This document shows positions 37,690 through 64,000 of a stretch of DNA of 64,000 nt, one piece after another. A program made the translations under genes and the position numbers. Location: positions 372,001-436,000 of the forward strand of contig NW_002476236.1 in the NCBI RefSeq assembly GCF_000189635.1, read 5' to 3'. Below the pieces are notes generated by a model, which had not been told where the DNA came from, ran no database searches, and saw only the letters and a program-made list of their open reading frames with translations. The DNA is from Tetrahymena thermophila SB210 (taxonomy: Eukaryota; Ciliophora; Oligohymenophorea; Hymenostomatida; Tetrahymenidae). Positions within the stretch are counted from its first letter, which is position 1; each line of letters opens with the position of its first letter.

Positions 37690-39305
37690 TCACTTTTTTT
37701 GTTTAGTTTATTCTAAATCTTCACAGATAACTGATGAAGATGTAAAACCTGCACTGATATTCAATACATTTTATTTTTTAAATGTTGAAATCATAATTGG
37801 ATGCTCGCTAAATGAACGTTTCTTGTTACCTAATTATCCATAATCATTTTCACCCCATTCTGTAACAACTCCTGCACTTAGCAAGGCAATACAGTGGTGA
37901 TTACCGCAACTAATTTTATTAATTCTTACATTTTCTTTTTGTCCACTTGGGTTTTTGACTTAGAAGTTTGAGAGACCTTCGATCTTAACAACATCAGAAA
38001 GATGACGAAGGAATCCTGCACCTAATTCACCCTTGTTATTATGTCCACATGAAAATACCTCAGTCTCTCCACTGTGCTTATTTTGAGTGACTATAACAGT
38101 GTGCTCTTCACCTGCTGCTACATCAGTAACTAAGCTGAAATCAAGCATTTTTTATATCTTTAAAGGTGTAAAAATACTTATAATTGGTTCTTCAGCTCTA
38201 GAGAATTATTCTTCTTAGCTCAATTACATATTGGAGTTTGAACCCCATCCATATAATTAACCTTCTTCAGTTATTGCAAGTGAATGATTGGAACCACAGC
38301 ATATTTTTTTAATACGTGCATTCAAAGATTCTATTTTTCTTGGATTTTTAACTCTACGTTCATAGAAAGGAGGAGCAGTAGAACGACTCATAGACCCTAA
38401 ACCACATTATCCATAAGTATCATCTCCCATAGAAAATACTTCTCCCTATTGAGTGAGTGCTAAGAAGTGATCAACTCCTGTAGAAATTTATTAGATATTT
38501 GGTGGAAGACTCTTAACTTGACGCATTGAGTTAGGATCAATTTATGTTCCAACTACTCTATTTCTATCGTCTACTTTTTTTTAAATAGTCCATTAATAAA
38601 CTTCTCCTTTGTCATTAAGAGCCCATACAAATCCTGTAGTAAATGAAACCTAAATATAATTGTTATTTTTCTTATCTAATTGAATTATGTCATTTCTGTA
38701 ATTGTCTGTTTCTTAATTTTAATAGTTTGCTTCGAGAGTAGGTTTGTTCCAAGCATAAATATATCCATTAATATCAATACCGGCTTCATTATGTTCTCCA
38801 AAAATTACTAATAAAATTTTAAAAGAAATATTTTATTTAAAACTTTATTTATAATCTGCTTTAGCATTAAAATATAAATTTGTATGTTTAGGCTATCTTT
38901 TAATTTAGTAAAAACAAAACACTGTATTTTTTATACAACAACTTTTGTTGTTGACTTTCAAAATTCAATCAGTAGCATAAAATCTTTATAAATTCCATTT
39001 ACTTTAAAATTTTTAACAAAATAAATAAACGAATACAATTTAAAATTATTACTTTCCTTCATATTTTTATTTTCCTTTCCTTGGAATGTTTTAATAAGCT
39101 TAGGTTCGAAGTTTTTGTATTATAACAAAGCATCTGGCCTTGCTTAATAAATACCATTACCCCAAATATATGTTTTTGTAGGAAGACTTTAGTCTGATTT
39201 CTTTTTATTATTCAATAAATTCTATGCAGGATTTTCATTAGAGAGGAAAATGGTTGCTACTAATGAAACACCTAAATTTCTGCTTGAAAATAACTTTTTA
39301 TACAT
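37690..39305 (-). CDS. RCC1-repeat (beta-propeller) protein, probably mitochondrial
   Basis: Exons 39305-39053 and 38807-37690 with a 245-nt intron encode 456 residues. RCC1-type repeats are clear: YIWGNGIYQARPD, IFGEHNEAGIDINGYIYAWN, GVDHFLALTQQGEVFSMGDD, CGSNHSLAITEEGQLYGWGS, FSCGHNNKGELGAG and CGNHHCIALLSAGVVTEWG. The N-terminus MYKKLFSSRNLGVSLVAT is basic and hydrophobic without acids, which suggests mitochondrial import. That fits the FMP25/RCC1L-like group of mitochondrial RCC1 proteins rather than nuclear RCC1, but the subgroup is inferred. The frame is also open upstream of the chosen Met with a coding-like peptide (SSPKDYPTKTYFS) but no ATG before a TGA, so a further 5' exon is possible. 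Confidence 0.85.
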
Positions 39306-40873
39306 GCTAAAATATGTCTTTGTAGGATAATCTTTAGGAGAACTTTTTAAAGTAAATTTAGATTTATTAATTATTTGTTTATTTTTACTTTTATTATTTT
39401 ATTGATAGAATTAGATACAATTATAACAAAAATAAATTCTTATATTTTCTTTAATTATCAAAAACTAACTTCAAATAAATGTTAGTATGTTTGTTTGTTT
39501 TCTTTCTTTCTTTCTTGCTTTTTTCTGCTAAGATTAACATTTGTATCTTTATGCATTAAATCTAATTATAAATGTTAATTTTCAAAATGAATATCTTAAC
39601 TTAAAATGGAATTATCTAGAAGTAGCCTTGCAATGTTAATTTTTTCATTAATTTAATGAATGGTAAATTGTTTATCGTTTAAAAATTATTTTTTTAATAA
39701 AATAAGCTTTTTCATTATATAAATATCAAATTATTTTAATTTAAAACCAAAAAATAAATTTTTAAGTCAATTAAATTTAAGTAAAATTAAATAAATTTGA
39801 ATTTATTAAATTTAAAAATTATTCTTTGATGAAGTTATACCAATTTATAATTTTAAAATGAAGATTAAAGATAAATATTTAAAACTAAATAAAAATTGCA
39901 AATATTTTTAAATAATAAATCTAAAATGCAAACATCATTAATAAATAAACTTTAACACTATTTTAAATATCTTAAACGACACTTTCAATCTATTAAAAAA
40001 AAAATTAATAGCTATTATGTACAAATTAAAATAGATTGACATTTAATTTAATTTGAATATATTTATGACTAGTATTCATATTTAAATTATTAATTAATTC
40101 ATTTTATAAAAATTTTGATTAGAATTTGAAATAAAATTAAATTAATAAGTCTTTCTATATTTATATAAAAATTTATTCTGGATTATTAAATATAATTATA
40201 TTAAGTTTTTAATAAATAATATTTTATATCCTTTTATATCTTCGTAATTTCTATTATATATTTAAAGTATTTGATTTAAATTATTTAAAAATTCAAAATA
40301 AAATAAAAATAACCTAATTTAAATAGTAAATAATGCATTCTCAAGGTAAATTTAAAATATATATGCAAGTATTTTTTTCATTAACACTTATATTCATTAA
40401 AATTTGATCTGGTATTACTATTAGGATATATTCATATTTAATTTTCTTATCATAAAGATGGAAATATTAATTATTAATATTATCATATAATTTTTAGATC
40501 AGTTTCTTAGAAAATACCTTTAGAGTTAACTTCATTTTTTAATTATGTAATAAAGAAAAAAATTATTATTTAATTTAATAAAAATGGTAGTGATGTAAAT
40601 ATTAGGTTATCTCTAATTATAATTAGTCATCTGATCAGCCTCTTATTATAACAACTTTAATTATGGCATACTCTTTTTAAATTACATAAATATGATTAAA
40701 TTAAGTAATACTCTTAATTAATAATCAACTTGATTTTAATGATAGCCAATACAAATCAAAATTTAATTAATTATTATCCTGCTTAGGATTAGCTTGTCTA
40801 ATCAACTTAATATTTTTTAAATATAAGAACAACATACAAAAATTTATTAAAATATATAAAAACAGATCTAAAA
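39306..40873. other. Intergenic region between divergent genes
   Basis: 1.6 kb of extremely AT-rich DNA between the RCC1-repeat gene and the otubain gene. A short TTTC run occurs near 39,500. No coding signal seen; promoters of both genes must lie here. Confidence 0.6.
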
Positions 40874-42784
40874 ATGGGTAATTAGCAAGATAAATAAGGG
40901 AAAAAATTCAAAAATGCGCTTTAGGTAATTAAAAAAATGAGCATAAAATCAACTAAGAGATTTGAAGAGCTATTTTACAAATGCAACACTGATGAAATAT
41001 AATAAGTAAGCCAACCATTAAATCTATCCTAAAAAATAAAAGAGTATGTAAATACTGAAATCATTTAAACATTAACAGAATTTAAAAAGCAGTATTCGTT
41101 ATATAGAGAAGTCCGTGGAGATGGTAATTGCTTTTATAGATCTGTTTTTTACTTATATATTGAGCACCTGATAGTAATCAATTAAAGCAACCCTAAAGAA
41201 GCAGAAAAAAGATTAGATCAATTAATTTAGATTTCTGCTGAATTAGATAAGTTCATTATTACCTCCTCTATACCTTTAGAATTAGAAAAATTTTTATATC
41301 ATGCTAGTAAATTTTTTTAGTGCGGCATTTATTCTATACAATTAGACATCATAAATAACCCTAAGCTATTAAATGTTGATTAAAAGATATTGCATCTGCA
41401 AAATTTTATTAACACATACCCTATTTTTGATTTTTCTACTATTCTTTTGATGAGAAAGGTAGCTCTTCTAGGATACGAAAAATTCTAATAACAAATGCAA
41501 CACTTTTATTTAGGAAATGAAATATAAACGATTAAAGATTATTCGATAGAGGGATAAAACTGCATAATGAAATTGATCAGTGAGTATTTATAAATACCTA
41601 TCTAAATTGAAAATGTCTAAGCAAAATTTGTAAATACAATTTAGTTTATTCCTGAATTTACAGTAAAGGATGAAAATTTTGTTGAGTTTCCTACTTTACA
41701 TCTATTTTTTAGACCAGGTCACTATGATATTTGCTATCCTATAGATTATGCTAATAAGATTTACTCAAAGCCAAATATGCAAAAGTCAGAAAGAATAATA
41801 ATAAAATAATAGTAAAAGCTTGAGAGTTAAACTCCTAAGACAGGAAAAAATTTTAGTTTTGATTATACATTAAAAGATAATTGCTTCTTTTGTAAATAAA
41901 ATATTTTTATGCTAATTAATGAAATGAGAATATGCTAATAATGCTATAATCAAAAAATAGGCCAAGGTGAATTAAATAATTCATGTAAAATATGCTAAAA
42001 ATCTAACCAAGAAGAAACTACTCGACCCTATTGCCTTTGTGAGTAATGTGAAGAAGAATATTTAGATTTTTCAAATAAGACTATAAATTTTATAATAGCT
42101 AGTTGTAATTAAACAACACCTGAAAATTCTAATTTAAATATATAAGAATAAAATAAATAAAATTCTTCAAAAATAATATAGTTATCAAATTCTTTGGAGG
42201 AAGAACAATTTTAATCTCTAACTGAAGATACTACAACACTTTAAAGTAATCAGAATATATAAAATAAAAACAATTTTACAAGTAATTTGTTATTATCATA
42301 TGAATTCATAAATCATACTAAAACTCCAAATGGTTTAGAATAAAATTAATAGTTAAGCTAACTTCCAGAAAATAATACCAATTCAGACTAATAACCTTAG
42401 TAACAATAAATTATTTTTTTAAATGATAGCAACAACTTATAAAAACCACAAAATTATTATTCAAATGACGTATTAAATTGCACTAAAAATGAAGGAAGAA
42501 AGAATACTTTAATTGATGAAAATATTTTATTAATGAATTCATATATTTAAGAAAAAGATTTGTATATAAATTAAACTACTTCTAAGTGCATCAGATGTGT
42601 GCTTTGTCTTAATTAAATTAAAGAATTCAAAGTAAACAATTGCAAAAGACATATCATTTGTACATATTGTTCAGAAAATTAACAAAATTTAAATTAATTA
42701 TGCTATTGTAGCTAACAAAATCCTAATCAACCTATATAATAATAGAATTTATAACAATAATAATATTAATAAGTTTCATTATGA
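40874..42784 (+). CDS. Otubain-like (peptidase C65) deubiquitinase with Cys-rich regions
   Basis: A single exon encodes 636 residues. Residues 78-90 read REVRGDGNCFYRS, the otubain active-site box, with Asp83 and Cys86. The His box LFFRPGHYDICYP places His283 and completes a D-C-H triad as in OTUB1. Residues 30 to about 295 fit one otubain domain, which cleaves ubiquitin chains. Two Cys-rich regions follow. The first (about 337-395) has CFFC, CQQC, CKIC and CLCEQC. The second (about 572-614) has CIRCVLC, CKRHIICTYC and CYC. Both look zinc-binding, and the second resembles a RING or related finger. Between and after them lie Asn/Gln-rich stretches. The fusion suggests a link between ubiquitin binding or ligation and cleavage, which is inference. 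Intact catalytic residues suggest an active enzyme. Confidence 0.85.
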
Positions 42785-47615: not shown

Positions 47616-48488
47616 CTTAAGATCTATTACTTTATCTTCTTATTTATTTTCACTTTTTATTATTAATATAAATATTTTCTCTTTTCAAGATTGCTTTAGA
47701 TTTTTTTCTTCTTTCTTTTGCTTCTAATATTTTTTTTTTCACATTTTTCCTTTTATATTAGCAAACCAGCCAAATGAGAGATCAATCAATAGATATTTGA
47801 TTTTTATTTTATTATCTTCATTATTTTTTTATTTATTGTTGTTTGTTGCTATTTTTCTTTGTATATCCATCCAACTCTACCATTTTTATTTACTTACAAT
47901 AGATACTTAATAAATATTTCAAAAATATTGTTTAAGAAATATACCTTTAACAAAAAGTTTTAATTTTTATTTTTTAATTTAATACATTTTATTTCTCACC
48001 AAAGATATATCTTTAATTTTTTAACTTAAATTAAAAAAAGAATTGATTATTTTTAAATTAATAACAATTTTATTTAATTTAATAAAATTCACTTAATTCC
48101 AGTTAGAATTTTTCATTTTTAAAGCTTTTACTTAGTTTAAATTTTAGTAATTCTTTTATTTAAAAAATTTAAAAAGGAAATTTATTTTATGGCAATTCAA
48201 CCAAAGGCAAAGTTTTATTTAATAGGAAATAACTAATTTTTGTTGTAAAGCCAATATCCAATAATACAATAAAAACTAGTTAGCTTATTGGTATAATATT
48301 ACCTTGAAATTAACTTTAAACATTTCTTTAGCTCAAACTCATATGCAATTTGCTTGATAATAATAATTAAAATTTTTCATTTATTATTTTAATTATAAAG
48401 TAAAATTTAGGAATCAACATAAAAAATGAAGAGAGTTTTACATAAAAAATACTGTTAAGCAATGAAGATAGAAAAAAAATATTGAAAA
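47616..48488. other. Intergenic region between divergent genes
   Basis: AT-rich upstream region of the two-pass membrane protein gene and the SNF2-like gene. A T-rich block lies at 47,690-47,860. The SNF2-like gene could start at an earlier ATG (48426) inside this stretch if a further intron is used. Confidence 0.55.
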
Positions 48489-50013
48489 ATGAAGAAGTAT
48501 TTGAATTAAAAATTTTTTTATTTTTATTTTTTTCATTAAATCAAATTAGATTTAAAAGCTGATCAAAATCAAAGACATCCCAAAGTTTTTAAAATAAATT
48601 ATATCTCTACCCAAGTATTAAGTAGACTAGACTCAAATTCAAAAAAAAGTAAAATACTAAAATGAATTAATTAAATTGAAATAAATTAAACATAAAAGAT
48701 TAAATAACTAAGTGATGTTAAACCTTCTAAGTATTTTGTTTAGTTTTTTATTGATTACATAGAAAAGCAAGGTAAGATTCTTTTCCTAGATGATGAAGTA
48801 TTTAAATTTACTATTTAAAGAGCTATTATTTTTAAAAATATTTATAAAATAGATATTTCCAAAGGTAGAAACTATATCATTTCTAATTAAAATACTTTGT
48901 TTAAATTATGAGAAACCCTGCTTGATCGTAACTGATAGTTATAAAGTAAACTTTAATCAGCTTAAATAAAAAATTTACTATTGCTTTTATAAAGGTAGAT
49001 AATTGGAAAATAAAAGTATAAAAATGGATTCCTAACTAAAAAATATCAAAAATCTAAAATTAAAACGATACTGTTTAATCATGTCCATTAGTTATCATAG
49101 TTAACTACGAGCACTTTTAGAATAATTATGAATGTCTGAGTGTTATAAATTTTGAATTTCTAATACTTGACATTCATGTTGATTAGATTAAAACAAATAA
49201 CTATGATAGCTTATGTAAAATAAGAAGTAATACAAAATCAGTAATTATAATTGAAAATTATGAGAGATTAAATACTATTGAAGACTACTGGTTATATCTT
49301 GCAATCCTGCATTCAACAATTTTCAAATTTGAAAGATTCAGCAAATTATAAAAAAGATATGCAATACTAGATCAAAATTCAGTCTCATATTAAGAATTTT
49401 CTTATATTTTATCAGAATTTTTTCAAACAAACAAAAGTAGAGAAAATCATAAAATTGAGAGTCAATCTCTTTTTTAAAAATTTAGCATAGAATTAAATCT
49501 CAAGTAAAAAAAGTAGGTATAGTTAATTTAAAGACAATTCAATGGATGGGAAATATAAGAATTTGCTAATATTGGTTATCATACTAATGAAGATATTAAT
49601 ACATACTTTTAATATCTAACTAATTTAAAAGAATAACATAAAAATACTCTCTTAAAATATTTAAGTTTATTGAAGAGAAAGACTCTAGTTATAGCAGATG
49701 GAGATTAAGTATTGTGTAAATTATTCAAAAAGTATAAAAATGTATAATTTATTTCATCAGAATCTGATCTTAGTATAGTCAGTCTGAAGGAATATGGTTA
49801 AATCTTGATTCTAGAAGTAAATTAATCCATTAAAAAAAAAATGAAAAAACTTATAATTTATATTATTTTAATAAAAAGATTGATCAAAACTATGAGGTAA
49901 AAAAAGCATTCATCCAAAGACTTAAGTAAGATGAAATAATTAAAACGAGAATGATCTTTTTAGAAATTGCAGACACCTTAGACTCTACTTTGATTGATTA
50001 TTTTATATCTTGA
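48489..50013 (+). CDS. Degenerate SNF2-like protein (predicted pseudo-ATPase)
   Basis: Five exons in consistent phase (48489-48614, 48699-48797, 48865-49015, 49092-49816, 49879-50013) encode 411 residues. The order of SNF2 landmarks is kept but the residues are not. GKILFLDDE joins ETISFLIKIL where ADEMGLGKT-QTI is expected, so the Walker A loop is missing. KPCLIVTDSY stands for LIVVP. IIIVNYEHFQNN stands for the VITSYE box. FEFLILDIHVDQIK stands for the DEAH box. SVIIIENYERLNTIEDYWLYLAIL stands for LLLTGTPLQNNLEELWSLL. At the C-terminus, ILILEIDQNYEVKKAFIQRL...FLEIADTLDSTLIDYF stands for motifs V-VI. It is extremely AT-rich and the exon joins depend on my phase fitting. The likely role is structural or regulatory, not ATP-driven remodelling. 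A decaying gene is the alternative. Confidence 0.6.
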
Positions 50014-50455: not shown

Positions 50456-51433
50456 TCAAATGTAAGGAGCATAAGCTCTAGAGCAAATACCGCAAGTGTT
50501 AGCAATTTGGTCACCAGTAACCTTAGCAGAGAGTTAGAAGTAACCGTGTTCACCGAAGTTAGGACCCCAGGAGTTCTTGACCTTCCAAGATTGATTAACA
50601 GAGTCGTAACCAACAAGTAAAACACCGTGGTTGATGTTAGTGGCGCACTTAGAAAAGATACCACCAGTGTAGAATTAGAGGTTAGAAGCATCGATACCAA
50701 CGGTAACAGGGGCCTTTTGAATAGCAGTAACGAGGTCAGCGCATTACTTAATAGAAGTGTAACCAGAAACAGTCCAAGGGTGGCTCTTACCTTCAAGTCT
50801 GCACTTACCATCCTTAGCTTCATAAGGATAATCTTATTCAGTGGCCAAACCAGTTGCCTTAACGTAGTTTAAGGCAACGTCTCTTAAACCACCACCGCAA
50901 CCACTGTTTTAAGTGTCACAGTCGATTAATTATTGTTCAGATAAGTTAGGGAGGACATTTTTGTAGACAAAGTTAGCACCTTCAACACCACCAGTAGTAG
51001 CGAAAGACCAACAACCACCACAACCACCTTGATCCTTAACAGGTGTGACAGCACCCTTAGCAACCCAATCGACAACAATATCTCCATTAGCTTGAATAGC
51101 TTAGAAAGTTTCAATAGAACCTTCAACGTTTTCAATGGGATTCAAGTAAAGTTAGGCAAATTCAACAGGGGTAAGGTCCATAAACTTGGTAATACCCATG
51201 GTAGAATCTTATGAAGCGTATTCAACGTTATCGAAGAAGACGTTCATTCTGTAAGCTTCTTAGTCAGCATCTTCAGAAGAGAATTTTTTGTTGTAGGTCT
51301 TCTTGAAGCCCTTCCACATGTTAATTTAGTCATCAGTGTATCCAACTTGAGTAGACTTGTGGAGGAATAAATAGGAAGTTAAACCTAATAAGGTTAAACC
51401 TAAAGCAGCAGCAATAAGCAATTGAGTTCTCAT
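50456..51433 (-). CDS. Cathepsin L-like papain-family cysteine protease precursor
   Basis: A single exon encodes 325 residues. Residues 1-24 form a signal peptide or anchor ([20 protein letters not shown]). The propeptide has an ERFNIN-like helix ([18 protein letters not shown]) and [13 protein letters not shown], the GNFD-equivalent region that keeps the zymogen inactive. The mature domain starts near [20 protein letters not shown]. The active site is complete: Gln135, Cys141, His269 ([11 protein letters not shown]) and Asn287 ([13 protein letters not shown]). The protease acts in lysosomes, phagosomes or outside the cell. The usual CGSCW box reads CGGCW, with Gly in place of Ser. Codon use is strongly biased (GGT, GCT, ACT, AAG, TAA), which indicates high expression. 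In-frame TAA encodes Gln in SEQQLIDCD. Confidence 0.95.
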
Positions 51434-53428
51434 TATTTTATTCTATCTTATGTTTTTTAGATTAATTTAATTATATCAAATATTATTTCAATTAATAATT
51501 TTTTAAAGCTTGACTAAATAATTTTTTTCTTTGTTTGTTTGTTTATTTGTTAATGATTTATTATGAAAGAATTATAAATAAAAATCTTTAATAGTTTAAT
51601 GTATATTTTAGCTTTAAAGCAAATCTTTCAATATTTTAGTCAAAGTAAAGCTTTTTTGATTACATACAAAATGTAAAAACTGTTTTGATGTAAAAAACTC
51701 ATTTGTTTACTCATGCAAAACAGAGTTAAAAGTATATATTGATTCATTCATTTTCTAAGGTCTAGATTAAATTAATTCTTTTACATAAAAATTCTTTTAT
51801 TATTTATTAAATTGCAGAAAATTTTCTCTGAGCAGAAATCTTATTCGATATTAGAAAACCTTAATATAAAAGAAAATTATAAATAAAAAAATGTTTATAA
51901 AAGATTTGTAAGCTCAGGATAATATTTTTCATTTCATTTTACAAATGAAAAATATTTTTAATTCTTTATAAGTTGCTCAATAGTTTATTAAAGTTTCTAA
52001 AATATATATTTTTTTATTGAAGCTTTAAGTTAAAATTGATTATGGTAATTTAAAAAATGATATTAAAATAAGAATAAAACTTTATTTTTTATTTTATTAA
52101 CTTTTTAATGAGATGTAATAAAAGATTCGATTAATTTGATTTTTAATTTTATATTCTTATCTAGATTTTTCAAATCCCATTTTTAGTTATTATTTCTAAG
52201 ATTACATTAGATCCAATTTTTAATAAATTGAATTCAATAAAAGCTAATAGTAACAATTATTTCAATTCATATTAATAATTATTTTAAACTAGAAAAGTTA
52301 AATAAAAACGAGAAGTAAACTTTCAGCATTAAACTTTCAGCATAGTTTTTATAGATACTGTTTTCTTTATTTTTCAACTATGAAATGTATTTTAATATGC
52401 TTAAATTAAATGTATGAATATTTTATATTTTTATCAACTTTTTGTTATCTCAATCTTTTATAGATTTTATAAAAGAAAAAAAGATTCAATTTAATTCTTT
52501 CTTTAATTTTTAAATATAAAATCAGAATAAATGGTAAAACTTTTTTAATTAAGAAACAAAATCTTAAAATTTTTTTCATACAAACATTTATAAATTAATA
52601 AGTTTAAGAATTATAATCTAAAATAATATGAGTTGATTTAAAATTAACTAAATTATTATTCCAAAAATAATTATTAATTATTAAAGCAATTTCAAAAGTA
52701 TTAAATGCAATGAAAATTATATTCTAAATTTTATGTTTTTTTGAACATATTTAAAAATTTTTTAAAAGTTATCTTACAAATTAATAAAAAATATTAAAAA
52801 AACTTTGTAAAAAAGACAAATAAAATAAAAAATTTTACCTATTTTAAATTAAAATTTTAATATGAGCTTTTAAAATATCTAAACAAATAAATAATTATGT
52901 TTCTTTATGAATAATTTTATTTTAAGAAAATGTAATATATGAATACAAGTAATTTAATAATTAAGTAGTGCTTAAAAATTATCAGCTACAATTAATCATT
53001 AATAAACTCATATAAAATATTATCTATGTTTTTAGAAATACTTCATTCCATTTAAAAATGTAGCACTCATTTCGCAAAAATTAAAAATAGAAAATTAATT
53101 TTAAACAAAATATTAAATTAAAATTTATAATTTTTTAAAAATTTTGAATATATTTATGAATAGAATATAAAATCAAAATTAAATAAAAATAAGAAAAAAA
53201 TTTAGAGATTAATATAAAACTTATAAATTTTTGTAATATTTGAAGAATAAACAATCAGATTTATAATTAATCATATTTGAATTTAAAATAAAATTAATTT
53301 CTCATTTTCATTAACTTAATTAAAAATGTTTATATACCTCACATTTGTAAAACCTAAATCTGTATTGTTCTTTTTTTGTACACTTATTAATAATTAAATC
53401 AAAAATAACATCAATAAATATAAATAAT
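51434..53428. other. Intergenic region between divergent genes
   Basis: 2.0 kb of extremely AT-rich DNA upstream of the protease and the large membrane protein. A short direct repeat (ACTTTCAGCATTAA...CTTTCAGCAT) lies near 52,318-52,342. No gene seen. Confidence 0.6.
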
Positions 53429-56400
53429 ATGATTTAATTTATCTTTATTAGCTTTTATCTCTTTTAATTCCTAGGTGTTAGTTAAACGAAATATTTATAC
53501 CTTGAGCCTGGATAATAAGTTTAGCAAGAGAACTAAGGTATTTTTGGAGGAGAAGTTTAAGAATATATTATTATTTTGAACAACAAATATTTAGATGAAT
53601 TGGTTGATAATCATGTTATTTTTGAAATGATTAATATTAAAAATACTGCAATTACATCATACGAAGTGTTTTATTAAGATGACTTACTTGTTTAAAGGTG
53701 TAGTTAAGCTTTTTACTAAGATTTATTGGTTTGTATAGTACTGAAGGAAGATATCAATTAACTGCGATAAAGGTAGAAATATACAAAAATAAATAATTTT
53801 ACATCATTTAAAGTGAAAATTAGCTGTATATAAGACTGCTTCTTTACTTTTTTTGTTGATTTTAGTAATCCAAATAGTAATATGTTTCTTAAATATAGTC
53901 TACGTTAAATTAAACCAAGTGAAAATGAGTATCCTATTTCTCTTAGTTTTAGCAAAAAATCAATCGCCTTTGATATAATCTAAAATTAAAATGAACTTAG
54001 CCTTAAAGATATTCTTATTAAGAAAAATCTAATCATAATAAAATAACCCCTAAAATAGTAAATTTATTTCTTTTTCGTTAATAAATTAGAAAGAAATACT
54101 TATGTAAATGTAAATTCAAATAATGTTATAAAACTTAAAGATTTTATTGAATTCTACAATTACAAATAATTTTTACTAGCAAACTACTTTTTAATTTTAG
54201 GAAATGTGACTGTTTAATTTGATGAAAAAACCATTTTTTTAAAATAAGCAACATATATTAAATTTAATAGTTTTTAAAATACAACTGAACGTTTATAAAT
54301 AAATGATAGCAATTAAGAAGCATATATTGTTATATTAACTGAAAATCCTTCAGGGTTTGATATTGATGAATACTACTTCTTTGATTAATATTTACTTTTG
54401 GATACGCTTTAACAAAAAAGAATACTTTAATTTCAACAAATATGTATTGAACCTATTTTTGATGATATTTCTTTAACTATTGTTTCAACAATTAAGCATA
54501 GTTAGACGAATTATTAAGAAAATAAAATAAATTTAGAAAAATAAATGCTATATTGTGAAAAAGCATAGATAGATGAAGAAAGTATAGCTTAATTATAGGT
54601 AAAAGGTATTTCAAAGACGGTAGTTAAGATTAACAGACTTAAATATTTCGTCGAATTAGATTTTATGAGATTTAGAAATTAAGAGATTTTTTATATGCAA
54701 GATCTTACTAAATTCATATTTATTAATCAAATAGATAATTACTTCTAGATAATATTTACAATTATCCATTTTTAAAACAAGGTAAATTTATTAGTTTTAG
54801 TTTTCTAACTTAAATCAATTGTGTTTTTATTAATAAGTAAAATATAGTTGACTAATCTTCGACTAAGCAAACAATCATTTATCAAAAATTAAAACAATAA
54901 ATAGTAACTATTAGTTAAATAAAGCATCTAATCAATAAAAATGTTATTTCTACTGATTTTGGTGATGATTTATATTCTCAAGAAGACCATTATTTGTCAA
55001 TATAAATGCTTTATTAATTAGATAATTTTAAAGCAATATATTTTTGGTTTAGTTAGAAAAAAAATAAATTTTTATCTACTTTTTAAGAAGAAGATGAAGA
55101 AATTCCTTAAAATATAGAAATTATTATTGATCCTTACTAGCTCAAGGCAGAATTTACATTAGTTCTTACTGAAATCTTTATTCCGATAATTTAAATAACA
55201 GGAGGGGAATTTAATTATGAATAATAATCATTACCTCTTGCTTCCTCTTTTAATTTTAAAAAAAGCTAATTGAAATTAGAAAAAGATGGAAAAATACACT
55301 TAAAATACTAAATATACTGCTATGAATAATGTCTAAAACCTGAAATATTACAAAAAAATAGCTAAAATAATATTCTCAAAATTTCATCAAATTAATCGAC
55401 TTAACAGTATGTCAGTGTTTTAGACTTTGAATTTTAAGAATATTCTTCCCTTTACTTGTTGTTAACATTTATCAGTGATATCCATTATATATAAGAAAAT
55501 AATTTACTAATTATTGAAGTTAATAAAAACCAAATACTTTCTAAATAAATGCTGGTGTGTGAAAATTTTTTACAAAGTTATTAAAGAAATAAAAAAATGT
55601 TTTTTATTAGTAATTAAGAAGTGACTACTTTTTAGTTAGGAAAAGTAAACATTGTGAAGTAAAATCAATAATACTTTGAAGATTTAGTCCTTTCTAATTT
55701 AAAATTTCTATACTTGAAAAATAGTGAATAGTTATTTCTTACTTTCCTTTACTAATTACAAATTTTTGAGTTAAATAATTACCAAAATTTTATTAATTAT
55801 TCACCTACCACTTCAAAAATACCATAAGTAATGTTGCAAAAAGGGTATGTATTTTATGAAAAAAAGCATAAAAATGATTTAATTATATACTGCTAAGATT
55901 TTAATTAAGTGTAATCTTTACTTTTTACAGCATAGAGCTATACAATTGTTATAGGTATATAAATTTTAGTTAAAATTTTATAATTTTTTGTTTTAAAAAA
56001 TAGAAGAAATTCAAAATAGCATGACTTTCGAAATAGAAAACAAATATAAAACATATATTTTTGGACTAAAATAAATGAAAAATTAATTTTAATAAGAAAA
56101 TATTTTTTAGCTAGATATTGAGTAAGAAAAAAGTAAAAATACCTTTTATAATATTTATTATTTACTCCAAAAATAGTTTGAAGATGATTTTAGTGTTAAT
56201 GACACAAAATCAATTTACTTCAAGTCTAACTAAATAACAATCTAATACTTTCAAAAATTTGAAAATCTTTACGATCGTTATTTAACTGAAACGTAAACTT
56301 AAGTATCTAAGATTAAATTTACTATAAAGAATTATAAGTTAATTCCTTTAAATATTGATGAAAATATTATTAATGAATAAACTTTTTCAAGTATTTATAT

Positions 56401-58266
56401 ATTCTTTACTTTGAAGCTAGAAAAGAGTATAGAATATAGAATTTAACTTTCTGATGATTTCCTTTTGTTAAATTCAAACAAAATAGGAGTAGCCACATAC
56501 TCAGCTTGCTTGATTAGTTAAAATTTTTATATAGATTCAAATAAATTTTTATCAACAGAAGATTCTTTTGATATTGAATCTTAAACATTTTAAGTCAAAG
56601 ATTTGAAAAAAAACTATGAGTACTTAGTATTATAATTTTATGAATTACCAAAAAGCTTTAAAATAACAGTTAAGTTATTACCCAGATATTAAATTATAAA
56701 CAACTTAAACCAATAATTTAATTATTTTAATTATACATTCTTAATATTTGATAAATCTTTAGAGTTTAAGTGCTTATATTTTGAAAGTTAAACTTAATTT
56801 TTAATTTTATAAGCAAGTTGCTAAGAAAATTTAGTTAATATGATAAATAGTGATAAAATTCGATAAATAATTTAGCAATATTATAATTGGTACCAACATG
56901 TATGCGTTCTTCCTTATCTTGCTCACCCATCATAGTCCTCAGACTTCTCTTCAGAATATTTAATGGTAAAAATTTTTTATTAATTTATTTTAATTTTTAA
57001 AAATATTTTTATTAGTAAGAAAATAAGTATTGTGCAGTTATAATAAACTTGTTACAGAATTAGCAATAACTGGTTAATGTTAAGTTAGATTTATAATAGT
57101 AAAAATAATAAATCGTACCTATTTTTGAGTAATAGATAGACTTCATTCAATTAATTACAAACTAAATTGTATCGTTATATAAATAAGATAATGATTCATA
57201 CTAATTATATATAATATTTCTAAATTAAGACAAATTAAATATTCTCATAAACTACGTGGATGTAGATGCTAACTTAATTATCAAATAAAATTGTTTGTAT
57301 GCTTAAATAGAAATTCCCCATAGAGTCAAGTTCGTATAATTATAAAGATAACTCTAATTATAATCATAAAAGTAATCTGAATTTTATGGTGTTATACATT
57401 TAAGTAAATTAAAGTTAGATAAAGTTATTCATTTGAATTAGGTAATAAATATAAAGTTTATGTAAGAAAAATAAATCTTTCAAATTTTTTTAATTATTTG
57501 CAATAAAGGATTACTTAAATATGAATTAAAACATATTAACAAAATATCCAACTAAAGTTATAAAACTATTTTCTAGTAAAGAGATATAGTTATCTATAGC
57601 AACGATAATGTAAATACTAAAATTGATGTATAAAATAGAATAATAAATTAAAACTAAGCAATAATTCTAATTTTTAATACTAACAGTACTGAAAAACATA
57701 ACATTATTTAAATAAAATCCAATCATTAAATTCAAGCTTATTTTGATAAATATAACTTCTAATTAAATCAGATTAAGTATAAATATTCATAAAATCCTTT
57801 AAAAATAAATATTTAATTCAAATCGATAATACCAAGTTAGCTTCTTCCAGAATTTCCCAAAATAATAACTTACAAAGTATGTTTAACAAAAAAGAAAATT
57901 AAAACAATTAACAATGATTTTATGAATGAAAACATATTAATTAAAGAACCTTAAAATATCTATTGCCATTTTATGATTGAAAGATCAAGAGAGAATACAA
58001 ATTAAGAAAGAATTATTAAAGTTAAAGAATTTCAACTCATCTAAAATTTTAATGAAGAGAACTATTCAATTAAAGTATAAGCAATTGCTAAAAGAGATAT
58101 TGTTATTAATTTAGATTTCCCTGTTATTAACTTTAATATATAAATAATAAAATGCAAATATGTTACAAGTTTAATCTTGCTCATAGTATTATTAATCAAT
58201 ATCATAATTAGCATAATATTTATTTGTAAAAAATAAAAATTAATTAGTTAAAACTAATTAGATTGA
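53429..58266 (+). CDS. Large type I membrane protein, 1,529 residues, function unknown
   Basis: Five exons in consistent phase: 53429-53772, 53866-54781, 54838-55954, 56004-56965, 57016-58266. The first 19 residues are a typical signal peptide (MIQFIFISFYLFQFLGVSQ). About 1,475 residues of presumably luminal or extracellular sequence follow, rich in beta-type hydrophobic/polar alternation and Asn/Gln, with few Cys. A single transmembrane helix lies near the end (YVTSLILLIVLLINIIISII), followed by a short basic tail (CKKQKLISQNQLD). I recognise no domain. Repeated phrases such as QYVSVLDFEFQEY and TYIFGLKQMKNQF suggest a string of related beta domains, but I could not define a repeat unit. Introns are 49 to 93 nt. 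A surface or vacuolar receptor-like protein is plausible. Confidence 0.75.
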
Positions 58267-60343
58267 ATATCTAGCAAGCTATTCAGATTGTAATTATTTT
58301 ATTTATTTTTGTTAGCATTTTACATATTTCAATTATATTAATTTTCTTTTTTAAATTTATTTCTATTTAACTCCTCAAGTTAACTCACTACTCATTATTA
58401 CCTATTTTTTGATCCAAAAATTAAGATAGAGAAAATCAAAAGTTTTGATTTAAAAATAGCTAAAATAAAAATAAACTTTTAATTTTAGACAATAAAATAA
58501 TAAAATATAATAGAATTACAGAGACTTATTAATTCTCAATTTAAAAAAATAAAGATATACTTTTAATTAATTAAAAACACTAATTTTGAAGATTCTTATT
58601 CTATTATTTTACATAAACATAATAGTTAATTTAATTTTAGTATATGCTGTTCTTTAAAAAAATTTCTTTTAAAAGCAATTGATCAAGTTTTTATTAATTT
58701 AATTTAATTTATTATATTATAAATTTTCATGTAAAATTTTATTAGTGATATTTAAAATTATTTGTATAAATTATAATAAAAATTCTACGTACTTTCACAA
58801 GAGTGCTAGACCTCAAATTTTTAAGAATTTTTTTTTTTAAAAACTATAATTAACCATATCACATAGCTTCTCGTATAGAGGTTAAAGTTATAAATTTTTT
58901 ACTCAATACCAAAATAAAATATTGAAAATAAATCACTTAAATGATTTTTGAAATACCAAACAAATATGACTTAACGTTATTTTGCTTAATTTATTAATAA
59001 GAATTTTAATAAAAAATTAAATTATTTTTGTGGTTAAATAAGAAATCTAAGAATCTTTAGAAAGTATATATTAACCAATAAGATAAAAGATATATCCTCA
59101 ATACTCTTTGAGTTTTTTAGTATATTTTTTCAAAAAATTTAAATTTACTGAGGTTTTAATTTTGTTTTTTTGTAAGTCATTATTAAATTTTAAGGTTAAA
59201 AATTTTTTTCTTACTCAAAAAATCAATGTATTTTAATAAAAAAATAATGTAAAATTAAACGTACTCCAAAAAAGAATCTTGTTAATTGTGTATAAAAAAA
59301 AACAAAAATCTGGTTTTAGCTTTGTTTACAAAAAACAAAAAGTATAATAGAGGAAATTTAAATTCCAAATTATAGATCTGAATTGTGTTTAAATTCAATA
59401 TTTGTAAAACATATTATTACCATTATTGATTGTTAATTGCACTTTTTTATTTTCTCTATATTTTATATTCAAAAATTATAATTGTGCTTTGAAGTATTCG
59501 AAAATTTGTTTTACTTTTAAAATTAATAAATATCATAATAAAAGAGAAAAAAAAGCATAAATTCATAATCCTCTAAAATTTAAAATCGCCTTAACCAAGG
59601 ATAACAAGTATGGATACATGCTTAATGAAAAATTACAAAAACAATTCTATATTTCTCAATTGAGTTTTGCTCACATTACAAAAATTTTACTAAAAATCAT
59701 AATTATAAATATCAAAGAATACATAATAATAAATTATAGTTAAGGTAAATAATGAGTAGGAAAAACATAAAATCAAAAAAAAGGTTGATGCTCATGAAAA
59801 GAGATTTACTAACATGAGAATATCAATCCTAAAGGTAAAGGTATGACTTAAATTTAAGAGCTTTTAAAATATGAAGATATTAAATGTTATAAAGAACCTT
59901 CTCTATCAGAAGAAAATATCAATTAGACCTTACTATTTACGGATAAGATATTATGAAAGTACAATGTAAAAAGATTACCAAGCTATCATATTTTTATATA
60001 AGTATTAATTTTTGAATAAAAAAATTTTTGATATTTTGATATTTAACCTAAATTCTTAATCTGCCACTACTAAATAAATTTAAGGAATTTATTTTAAATG
60101 TTTTGCAATATTTAAGAACCACGATAAGGTATGATGAGGTGAATAAAATTAAAAAAAGATTATATTTTATTTATTTTTTAAAAGAAATCAAATAAATGTA
60201 TTAATTATTAAAAAATAAATTTAATATGTTTTAATTAGAGTAAAAATTATCTTTAAAATATTATATAACATACCATTTAACAACAATAAAAATATTACTA
60301 AAAATAATAAATTTATTTTTTAATTAGTTAATTAGTTTATTTT
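58267..60343. other. Intergenic region between convergent genes
   Basis: 2.1 kb of AT-rich DNA. Apart from the broken coding patch at 59752-59956, no gene or RNA signal is recognisable. Confidence 0.55.
59752..59956 (+). pseudogene. Possible gene fragment broken by a frame change
   Basis: One frame reads KKVDAHEKRFTNM up to about 59815. A second frame then continues as ENINPKGKGMTQIQELLKYE and DIKCYKEPSLSEEN to a TGA at 59954-59956. Each half has coding-like codons that the flanking DNA lacks, and together they read as one peptide with a shift near ACTAACATGAG. There is no room for a normal intron at the join. A decayed fragment of a larger gene is the simplest reading, and a sequence error is the alternative. 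I do not recognise the family. Confidence 0.3.
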
Positions 60344-63300
60344 TCAAAAGAATGCATTTTTGCAGGCTTTTTGTGCAGATTAATGGGTAGCATAAGTTTA
60401 AATTTATTACTTAGTTTTATTATCTGCTCTAGCATTCCAAGCAGCACCTTTAAGTCTAACCTATTCCACAATTTCGCCTACTTAGCTTGGAGGATTGGCT
60501 TCCTTGATTATTGCACCTATAATTTTAAAATAAATTAGTTTGATGTTTCTATAAATAAAATTTACCTAATTCATCACTCATAACGAAGATTGAGAACTTT
60601 TGAATATTGGAAATGCTTGTAGAGCTACGAGAAACATAATCAAAGCGTCCTACTAAATCGGTATAACCATCTTTAAAGAATGAGACAGTTCCATCTTTTT
60701 GCTTAGAGAAGCACTTAACATAAACCTTAGAAAGTGGTTTTTCTTCCTTGTCAAGAATCTTAATTTGACCAATATCTTCTATTAATTAGACTTATAGAGA
60801 AGTAGAGAAGTAAGTCACACTACTTTATACATTATGGGAAGATACTTCTATGCAAACATTAGACTTTACATATTTTTCTGGAATTGGAATTTACACTTTT
60901 TAAAGTCCTTTTGATATATCAAAATCAAATACTTCTGAGTGATTAGGCTTAACAAAGCTAAAGTCAGAAGCTTCGTTTGAAAGGAAGGGATTTCTACTGA
61001 ATAATATTTCAAGATCTATTAAATAGTAAGTAACAGTAAGTTTAGATATATTCTATATAGTAACGTCTAATGTAGTTTAAGCTAAGGTAACTTTTAATGT
61101 TTCGTTCGCCTCTTCTTTTTTCTTATTGGCTTGCTTAATCTTTAATTACTTTTGTTATTCCTCTGATTAATCAACTTAAGGTTCTTAGATTTATTCTTCT
61201 TCTCCATCATACTCTGCTAATTTGTTAGCAACTTCATAGAAAAGATTACGCCATTAAAAGACAGGGTGATCTAAATACTTTTCACATAACTCTCTAGCTT
61301 TCTTAAAGTTAGGGAAACCAATGAAGAAATCAAGATATGTTGTAAAGTAGTCGTATTAAAGTTGACAATTAGGAGACTGTTCAACTTAAGTTTAGTCTAT
61401 TTTTTTGAAAACATTAATTGCTTCCTCTATTCTATCTTAAAGTAAGAAGTAATAAACAAGACCTAGTTTATCAGAAACTTCCCATTTCGGTTTTTAAGAT
61501 AAATAATTTAAGAAGCTGTTATATCTCTACTTAAATTGACTATTCAAAATGTTGGACTTTTTATTTATTTAAAAAATAAATTAAATTAAAATTAAAAATA
61601 CATTCAGAGAAAATCAATTTAAACAAGATATTTTTTTAAGATGAAATAAGAATCAATATTTAAATATAAAAATTAAAATTACTTTATCAGAGTGGAGCAT
61701 ATGGACACGAGGGTTAGATAAAGGGTAATATTCGTAGAATCTATTCTTATCAATAGTTAAAGAATTTGTATTGAAATAATAGAGATAGCTTTCAAATGAG
61801 GTAGATATAGAAGGAGACTTAATTAATTCTAAGAAGGTGCTATAATCTCCATGATAAATAGAGTAAGCCCAAGTAATCGTATCAAAGACCTTTCTATTTT
61901 TTAATATTTCTACGAATTTTTGATAGAAAGACTTGTCTTTCAATAGATAGTAAATCTCATTAAATTAGAAAATATTAGTGTTAAGTATATTTTTAGTTTA
62001 AACAAACTTCAAAATATCTTCTTTTGAACCCTTTTAAAGGATTTCATTCATTGTTTCCAGATTTGAGACTGTCCTCTTTTCTTTAACATCAAAAGTACAA
62101 GGTTTGGCAAAAGCTACAATTTATCCACTCTTTGCTACGTTTGCTGGATAAATATCTTGATTGCCAGCCTATTTTTTTAATAGCAAATATTTTATAATTT
62201 TATAAATAAATAATTAATAAATAAATAAGTTACCTAAGGGAAATAGAAAAAGTATTCAATAGGCTTAGTTTAGAATGGCTCAAGAATGATATTGTGTGTT
62301 TTAGTGTAATCAGAAGTGAAGACAGGAATTGAACCAGAGGGAATTTCTACAAAGACCTGAAGCTCATGTCTTGCAGCTGAACAATTTGTTACAATAACCT
62401 AATATATTTAATGATAAAAAAATAAGTTAAATCTATATCTAATTTATTAGTATTACTTAACATCCATATCTCTTATCAACTACATACTCTGTTATTTACT
62501 TTTCATATTTATCATCTGGATTTTCATCTGAAAAGACATATCTATCATTAGGATCAAAGAACTTTTAAGTAATCAAGATGTCTTCTCTAAGCTAAGCTTA
62601 TCCTTCTTTGATTTACTTAGCAAAAATGATGCAGTTAGAATTCATAGTTATTTTAATTCCTTTTCCTTCGTATGGCTCATAGTTATGGCTTTGAGATTCA
62701 AAAGGAAGTGCCAAAAAGGCTAAAGAAGTAATCATTTATGTGTGATTTGATGTACAATAAATAAAATTAGAAGACAAGAATGGTTTTTCTTAACCATATG
62801 TAATTATATGTCTTGCTAAATCTATCCAAAAATTGTTGATTGGTACTAAATTTTTTTAAGGTTAAAGCTCTTTTTGTGAATAATAATGACGTTCACAGTA
62901 TTCTTTAGTTGTCTCTAAATTTTGATACTGCTAAATAAACCCATTTCTCTTATTTTAGTAACCAGCGTCAAAATCATCAAGTAGATGTAAAGCTTCCTAT
63001 TAACCATATGAATAATTCTGAGCTCCAAAATTATTTTATTGTGGTAATCTCCTCATTTCTTAATTTTATCTTGCAAACCTTGCTTATGGAGCAGGAGCAG
63101 CACACTACATCATAGGAAGGTGTTATTATTATTATTAATACATTTATTATGGAAATGCTTAATTCATACCTCCAAAATAACCACCAGCAGCACCACCAAA
63201 AGCATTGTTCATAGGCATAGCCTATTACAATAAATTTACATTTAAATTATTAGTAAACTATTGGATGTTTGCTTAAATACTTTATGGCATAAACATCTAT

Positions 63301-64000
63301 TATATTTCATTTTCTGTTTATCCTTCTTATTTGGCATTTAAAACAGTGTCAAATAGCTTCTTAAAGTGCGAAGTGTCATACTTCTTAATTTTGTTAGAAC
63401 TCTCCAAAAAGTTAAAAATGGACTTAGCTTCTTCCACCATATTATTTTATTTGAGGAAGAAAATCAAAAGTACAGTTTCCAAAGCATTCAAATCTGAAAT
63501 TGAGCTGGCAGATATATTTTTTAGAAGGTATTTAGAGTCGTTGATTAAGAAGTAATCTATGAAAGTCTTTTCAATTTTATTTTTAATGAAGGGCATAACA
63601 AAGTCTTAAAAGAAGGGAGGGTCTTTGCAGAAAATGAAAAGATTTAATTCATGGCATGAGTATTAGTCATACTTCTTATGCTTTTCTTCTAGAGTAAAAG
63701 TTGTCCATTTTACAAGGAACTCCCAAAAGTCGTAGCCATTAGTTTATTCTGAATCTGTTCCATATATTTTTCTTAATTCCTTTTATGCTGAAAACAATTT
63801 AGGAATAGAATCTACCAATTAAAGTTCAGTGGAAGTAAAGTCTTCAGATTTAAATTCAGAACCCTTTTAAATATACTCGTTTGTTCTGGAAATAGTAAAG
63901 AACTTATCCTTTTATTAATTCACTCTCTAGCACAAGTTTCTTGTTTAAATTTCATTTTTATCAAGTGGGACTACCTTTGTAATATCTTTTTTTAGGAAAA
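60344..64000 (-). CDS. C-terminal part of a large conserved eukaryotic protein, 5' end outside the window
   Basis: Exons 64000-62457 (open to the edge), 62398-62234, 62168-61683, 61556-60566 and 60516-60344 in consistent phase give the last 1,118 residues. The N-terminal half in the window is helical (KKYDTSHFKKLFDTVLNAK). A Gly/Gln/Ala-rich spacer (63,235-63,000) follows. Beta-type domains come next: VFVEIPSGSIPVFTSDYTKT, EYFFYFPQAGNQDIYPANV. Then FYEYYPLSNPRVHMLHS and a helical repeat part (DHPVFQWRNLFYEVANKLAE), and finally FSKQKDGTVSFFKDGYTDLV-GRFDY. I recall this last motif, and the YPANV-type region, from very large unannotated protist proteins with alpha-2-macroglobulin-like beta domains. 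That link is recollection, not proof. There is no signal peptide or membrane segment in this part, so a cytosolic location is likely. Confidence 0.8.

Follow-up and report, generated by a model that had tools for sequence, protein, structure and literature searches.

The closest described counterpart of the gene examined here is BIME2 of Tetrahymena thermophila (TTHERM_00530659; protein XP_001470665.1), which was reported in 2017 as a meiosis gene with meiosis-specific expression (PMC5662671). In the sections of that report on which we draw, HHpred with four Tetrahymena orthologues finds an SNF2_N domain in Bime2 (E = 2.2e-04) and similarity to a profile for the Rad54B subfamily (E = 3.7e-09), motifs I-III are described as functionally unconserved with ATPase activity possibly lost, and clear homologues are given from other Tetrahymena species only (PMC5662671). 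The knockout replaced 1,767 bp of the open reading frame (ORF); the deletion gave 76.2% univalents and absence of the Dmc1 signal in 80% of elongated nuclei, BIME2 is required for Dmc1 foci and most interhomolog crossovers, and the chromatin foci of Bime2 depend on Spo11 and Dmc1 (PMC5662671). A passage in a review states that Bime2 promotes or stabilises Dmc1 filaments (PMC8282021), and a limited literature search found no later paper revisiting its ATPase. We find a degenerate SNF2 gene in a 64,000-nucleotide stretch of the T. thermophila SB210 genome (contig NW_002476236.1, here C270, positions 372001-436000; hereafter the window) that is, by position and features, most likely BIME2 itself.

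The original prediction, made on the letters of this DNA, held that a dead remodeller relative would be unusual; published cases argue otherwise, as Bime2 itself, Drosophila SUUR and Arabidopsis MOM1 are all degenerate SNF2 proteins. SUUR, whose domain is described as important for recruitment to forks, was predicted to be defective for ATP binding (PMC6185109), yet strong ATPase activity is reported for it, with the Walker A mutant K59A as negative control (PMC9917439). Motif loss is therefore not proof of activity loss. Its ATPase activity, its action at replication forks and a long C-terminal region of no known homology set SUUR apart from our locus. MOM1 shares with our locus a degenerate SNF2 domain within a functional protein, but according to the text consulted it keeps second-lobe motifs only and the remnant is dispensable (PMC2507757), whereas our locus keeps the first lobe. 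The proposed functional counterparts are Rad54, Rad54B and Rdh54, which belong to the SNF2 family and work with Rad51 and Dmc1. Rad54 is, unlike the protein predicted here, an active motor, and the same genome holds a separate intact Rad54 (locus L021, best PDB match 1z3i). A survey of 15 Tetrahymena Snf2 proteins required, as its text describes, both domains (PMC9786623), and a protein like ours was therefore probably not included.

The genome carries a telomerase RNA identical to that of T. thermophila. The gene lies at 420.2-422.0 kb of contig C270 on the plus strand, is spliced, and ends with a TGA stop at position 50013 of the window. Our long model spans 48189-50013 (1,825 bp) and encodes 481 codons:

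48189..48290, plus strand: exon 1 (inferred), 34 codons from ATG 48189; taken from frame-consistent paths; GC content 25.5%; codon score without frame preference
48401..48496, plus strand: exon 2 (inferred), picked by hand from 59 frame-consistent upstream paths; upstream splice partner uncertain, several sites fit
48550..48648, plus strand: exon 3 (inferred), free of TGA and flanked by phase-0 GT-AG introns
48699..48797, plus strand: exon 4, upstream of motif I, ending KILFLDDE; this frame has the best codon score; the hhalign-aligned region starts at residue 118
48798..48852, plus strand: intron within the former motif I, GTATTT..AAATAG, 11% GC, from splice-path analysis; the alternative without it scores about the same and breaks the frame
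48853..48945, plus strand: exon 5, with the motif I remnant IFPKVETISF and motif Ia as PCLIVTDSYK, from profile alignments
48946..48994, plus strand: intron of 49 bases, GTAAAC..ATAAAG, picked by the splice-aware profile search, connecting motif Ia to VDNWKIKVQKW
48995..49816, plus strand: exon 6, 274 codons in a single unspliced frame, from the motif Ib region to the C-terminal part
49169..49180, plus strand: motif II position, read from the sequence, where DIHV replaces DEAH
49253..49273, plus strand: motif III position, from the hhalign and A4 alignments, where ENYERLN replaces (T)GTPxxN
49879..50013, plus strand: last exon with the TGA stop, after a phase-0 intron at 49817-49878; resemblance to the motif VI region by eye only, no C-lobe signal

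By profile comparison, residues ~118-348 of this model share homology with the first RecA lobe of SNF2 ATPases and the beginning of the inter-lobe linker. Standard searches of the genome (101 Mb in 445 contigs, translated with code 6) missed this relationship: a first hand-joined protein with wrong junctions gave no SNF2 match in Pfam (hmmscan) or PDB (phmmer), and the locus is not among the 33 places found by a genome-wide PF00176 search. This led us to write a splice-aware aligner for profiles, with 13 intact SNF2 genes from this genome as its training set (19 SNF2 loci were fetched; L027-L029 and L031-L033 were excluded). As background we used 126 half-overlapping segments of the remaining window on both strands. 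With an intron cost of 12, and without frameshifts, the locus scores 140.2 against the first-lobe profile (segment mean 72.5, maximum 96.6; z = 6.6); with an intron cost of 8 the score is 149.9 (z = 5.3, segment maximum 120.3), a value reached by 0 of 200 dinucleotide shuffles (maximum 133.6). A hidden Markov model (HMM) of the same-genome paralogues gives 28.0 bits (E = 1.6e-7; best decoy 10.4). An HMM of 68 viral SNF2 proteins, which is independent in that it played no part in splice-site choice, gives 38.1 bits (E = 6.7e-11), the highest of 2,000 shuffles reaching 7.3. The hhalign probability is 96.8% over residues 118-348, and phmmer against PDB returns SRCAP (E = 0.0046), the remodeller ATPase 5jxr (0.011) and ISWI 6pwf (0.02). 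The SNF2 evidence within exon 6 is independent of splicing. In a subfamily comparison, the first lobe appears to resemble SWR1 and ISWI-type paralogues more than Rad54, at poor resolution. We found no close relatives of the locus elsewhere in its own genome or in viral contigs, and a contig scan for an SNF2 ORF found nothing.

The catalytic motifs of this lobe are lost. GxGKT (motif I), DExH (motif II) and (S/T)GTP (motif III) are absent from all three plus-strand frames of 48189-50013: the GKT of motif I is gone, DEAH has become DIHV and GTPxxN has become NYERLN, which removes both motif I glycines, the catalytic motif II glutamate and the motif III GTP. Across the 35 rows of alignment A4, the aspartate of DIHV is the sole invariant column, and the motif I lysine may be kept as IFPK. 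The claim that this is an SNF2-like protein without its ATPase motifs is thus borne out by the profile tests and the missing motifs. The second RecA lobe is another matter, as four tests give no SNF2 signal in the C-terminal ~130 residues; the second-lobe profile yields z-scores of 1.1 and 2.0, with 15 of 200 shuffles reaching the score of the locus, and motif V/VI patterns (GGxG, RxGQ-type) occur in no plus-strand frame of 48189-50013. Of the succession of landmarks from motif Ia to motif VI that had been proposed, the first-lobe part is therefore detected and motifs IV-VI are without signal. Landmarks of the C-lobe picked by eye (KTLVIA.., IDQNYEVKKAFIQ..) look plausible and were dropped, no profile test supporting them.

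At the motif I junction, reading through the intron at 48798-48852 gives DDEVFKFTIQ. This read-through model (m2) matches the spliced one with the viral HMM (37.9 versus 38.1 bits) and scores 31.8 versus 28.0 with the paralogue HMM, but it breaks the frame by one base near 48864. As a separate observation, at 48798-48864 the motif I intron reads VFKFTIQRAIIF in the upstream frame, strongly resembling GLGKTIQTISLL; this segment is possibly a one-time exon converted to an intron following a frame change.

Despite its degeneration, the frame has been kept open, as had been argued from the sequence. There is no in-frame TGA before the stop in 481 codons, where composition predicts about 9 and the other two frames have 9 and 25; the chance of this by composition is ~1e-4, a count biased by the choice of an open splice path. 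Exon 6 alone has 0 TGA in 274 codons, against 4 and 12 in its other frames. The in-frame codon score exceeds both other frames and all 500 shuffles, although the tested paralogues give a stronger signal and exons 1 and 3 do not favour their own frame. GC content is 23% in exons, 9-18% in introns and 15-17% in flanks.

Exons 1-3 are the least certain portion of the model, and from 48699 onward all models share their structure except at the motif I junction. Fifty-nine paths reach exon 3, 58 of them from ATG 48189 and one from 48426. With at most two introns, 279 paths end in exon 4 (180 from 48189, 77 from 48426 and 22 from 48489, seven of these 22 having one intron). A start at 48489 can therefore yield a model with five exons and four introns; such models skip exon 3 and have 414 codons through intron 48585-48698 or 424 through intron 48615-48698. 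The five phase-matched exons originally read from 48489 thus exist as a model; nevertheless we prefer 48189 as the start, because the GC content of its exon 1 is higher (25.5% versus 18.3% for 48489-48614) and because, if the gene is BIME2, the published ORF deletion of 1,767 bp exceeds the 1,525 bp available from 48489.

The identification as BIME2 draws on gene order and features. On the left, CFAP74 is TTHERM_00530270 (PMC8175508, in the part consulted). The best match to its domain PF24771 (62 bits) is on the same contig at C270:304587-304769, with a second piece beside it; a search with PF24770 gave no match. From there to the locus is ~116 kb and 39 gene numbers, or about 3 kb per gene. 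On the right, three neighbours follow:

50456-51475, minus strand: papain-family protease (Pfam)
52943-59755, plus strand: stretch right of the protease, treated as one gene
59919-64000, minus strand: large gene with two paralogous loci, proposed as CAGE3, running on into the neighbouring region (L118)

In the plus-strand stretch, the first ORF has no Pfam match and a 572-residue ORF has no paralogue. In the large gene, whose ORFs span about 7 kb into the neighbouring region, a 544-residue ORF matches loci on contigs C282 and C242 at 37-42% identity (5 of 5 candidates scored). CAGE3 is described in the text consulted as TTHERM_00530680, a protein of 1,890 residues with two paralogues and part of a recently described megadalton cage (PMC12485934), and the large gene appears to fit it. 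Our locus lies two genes before this CAGE3-like gene, in gene order between TTHERM_00530270 and TTHERM_00530680, the CAGE3 call being indirect; numbers 659, 660, 670 and 680 therefore fit four successive genes. The 1,767-bp knockout is compatible with our 1,825-bp span from 48189, and the features agree with those published for Bime2, an SNF2_N domain that takes sensitive methods to find and motifs I-III that are not conserved.

Taken jointly, we consider it quite probable that the locus is BIME2, a single-copy gene of ~414-481 residues derived from an SNF2 ATPase, whose product would provide an ATP-independent DNA or chromatin contact aiding Dmc1 filaments. Several points weigh against this. 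The name BIME2 rests on gene order and features; PF24771 has three weaker matches above cut-off on two other contigs, searches with the CAGE3 candidate gave neither a meaningful PDB match nor a bacterial relative, and the four-gene numbering assumes that 52943-59755 is one gene. The protein does not reach the gathering score of Pfam SNF2-rel_dom (5.9 bits, E = 8, versus a cut-off of 24.9), the start codon could be 48489 as well as 48189, and the published likeness of Bime2 to Rad54B is not singled out at the locus, where SWR1/ISWI-type proteins appear nearer at poor resolution. We infer ATP independence from motif loss. In the sections of the 2017 report that we draw on, Dmc1 was not recovered in Bime2 pull-downs (PMC5662671), which speaks against a strong direct scaffold.

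Of the other explanations, mere chance resemblance of an unrelated Tetrahymena orphan protein is hardly credible: although the first protein had no SNF2 match in Pfam or PDB, the corrected one stays far below the Pfam cut-off, and single-sequence AlphaFold of exon 6 alone gives no fold (mean predicted local distance difference test score, pLDDT, 33.9), five separate tests agree, down to E = 6.7e-11. That the locus is a decaying SNF2-remodeller pseudogene, in which the one-base break near 48864 splits an old motif I (DDEVFKFTIQ) from motif Ia, would account for the equal scores of read-through and spliced models and for a codon signal weaker than that of the paralogues; it is very improbable given the absence of TGA from 481 codons, an exon 6 that is open by itself, the retained codon signal, the GT-AG ends and low GC of the introns in the spliced model and, if the locus is BIME2, the strong deletion phenotype reported.

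A separate, undescribed degenerate SNF2 gene near BIME2 would be compatible with an identity drawn from gene order and features and with gene numbering that is just roughly linear. The gene order fits on both sides, however, with CFAP74 to the left and the CAGE3-like gene two genes on, and the published size and features match, which makes such a neighbour quite unlikely. Finally, Bime2 may be degenerate in sequence and still an ATPase or translocase. SUUR, predicted inactive, proved a strong ATPase in the account consulted, and a motif I lysine may remain in IFPK; against this stand the loss of the motif I glycines, the motif II glutamate and the motif III GTP and the absence of motifs V/VI from every frame, and we regard continued activity as unlikely.

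Elsewhere in the genome we observe a second degenerate SNF2 gene, which is SMARCAL1-like and lies beyond the window (L033; G000:C60, about 543.5-545.7 kb). With a profile of the three loci L027 (contig C311), L028 (C279) and L029 (C182), which we take to be SMARCAL1-like, its first lobe scores 207 versus 95 for the reversed and 75 for the reverse-complement sequence, and its second lobe 120 versus 85 and 68 for the same controls. Its DEAH is retained and its motifs V/VI have been lost, while LNSCKT and SSCC stand at motifs I and III. The T. thermophila survey counts, in the text consulted, two Smarcal1 proteins (PMC9786623), versus the three SMARCAL1-like loci here. A contig scan for CAGE relatives found nothing. 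Two further genes of the window have Pfam assignments:

37690-38964, minus strand: RCC1-repeat protein, RCC1-like domain (196 bits)
40130-42784, plus strand: otubain-type C65 peptidase (65 bits)

Through the BIME2 publication this gene is apparently already known, and the details added here are modest. Relative to the published account, as far as we have it, these are an intron in the former motif I that keeps the frame, the lack of a recognisable second lobe and an apparent likeness to SWR1/ISWI closer than that to Rad54, none of which is decisive. Because the P-loop glycines, the catalytic glutamate and the second lobe are absent, ATP-driven translocation is unlikely, and loading or stability of Dmc1 would therefore be promoted via DNA or chromatin binding. 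In the mechanism that we propose, Bime2 would be unable to act as a Rad54-type translocase, and the lobe remnant may serve as an ATP-independent contact with DNA or chromatin that helps Dmc1 filaments load or persist. A more specific scenario, to which we give tentative and less than even credence, is that a single-lobe, ATP-independent SNF2 remnant descended from an SWR1/ISWI-side remodeller, and not from Rad54, has replaced an Rdh54/Rad54B-type translocase as the partner of Dmc1. If the identity with BIME2 is true, the dead remodeller proposed from the sequence already has an assigned role in crossing-over between homologs, and the question becomes whether an SNF2-kind accessory factor of Dmc1 works without ATP hydrolysis.
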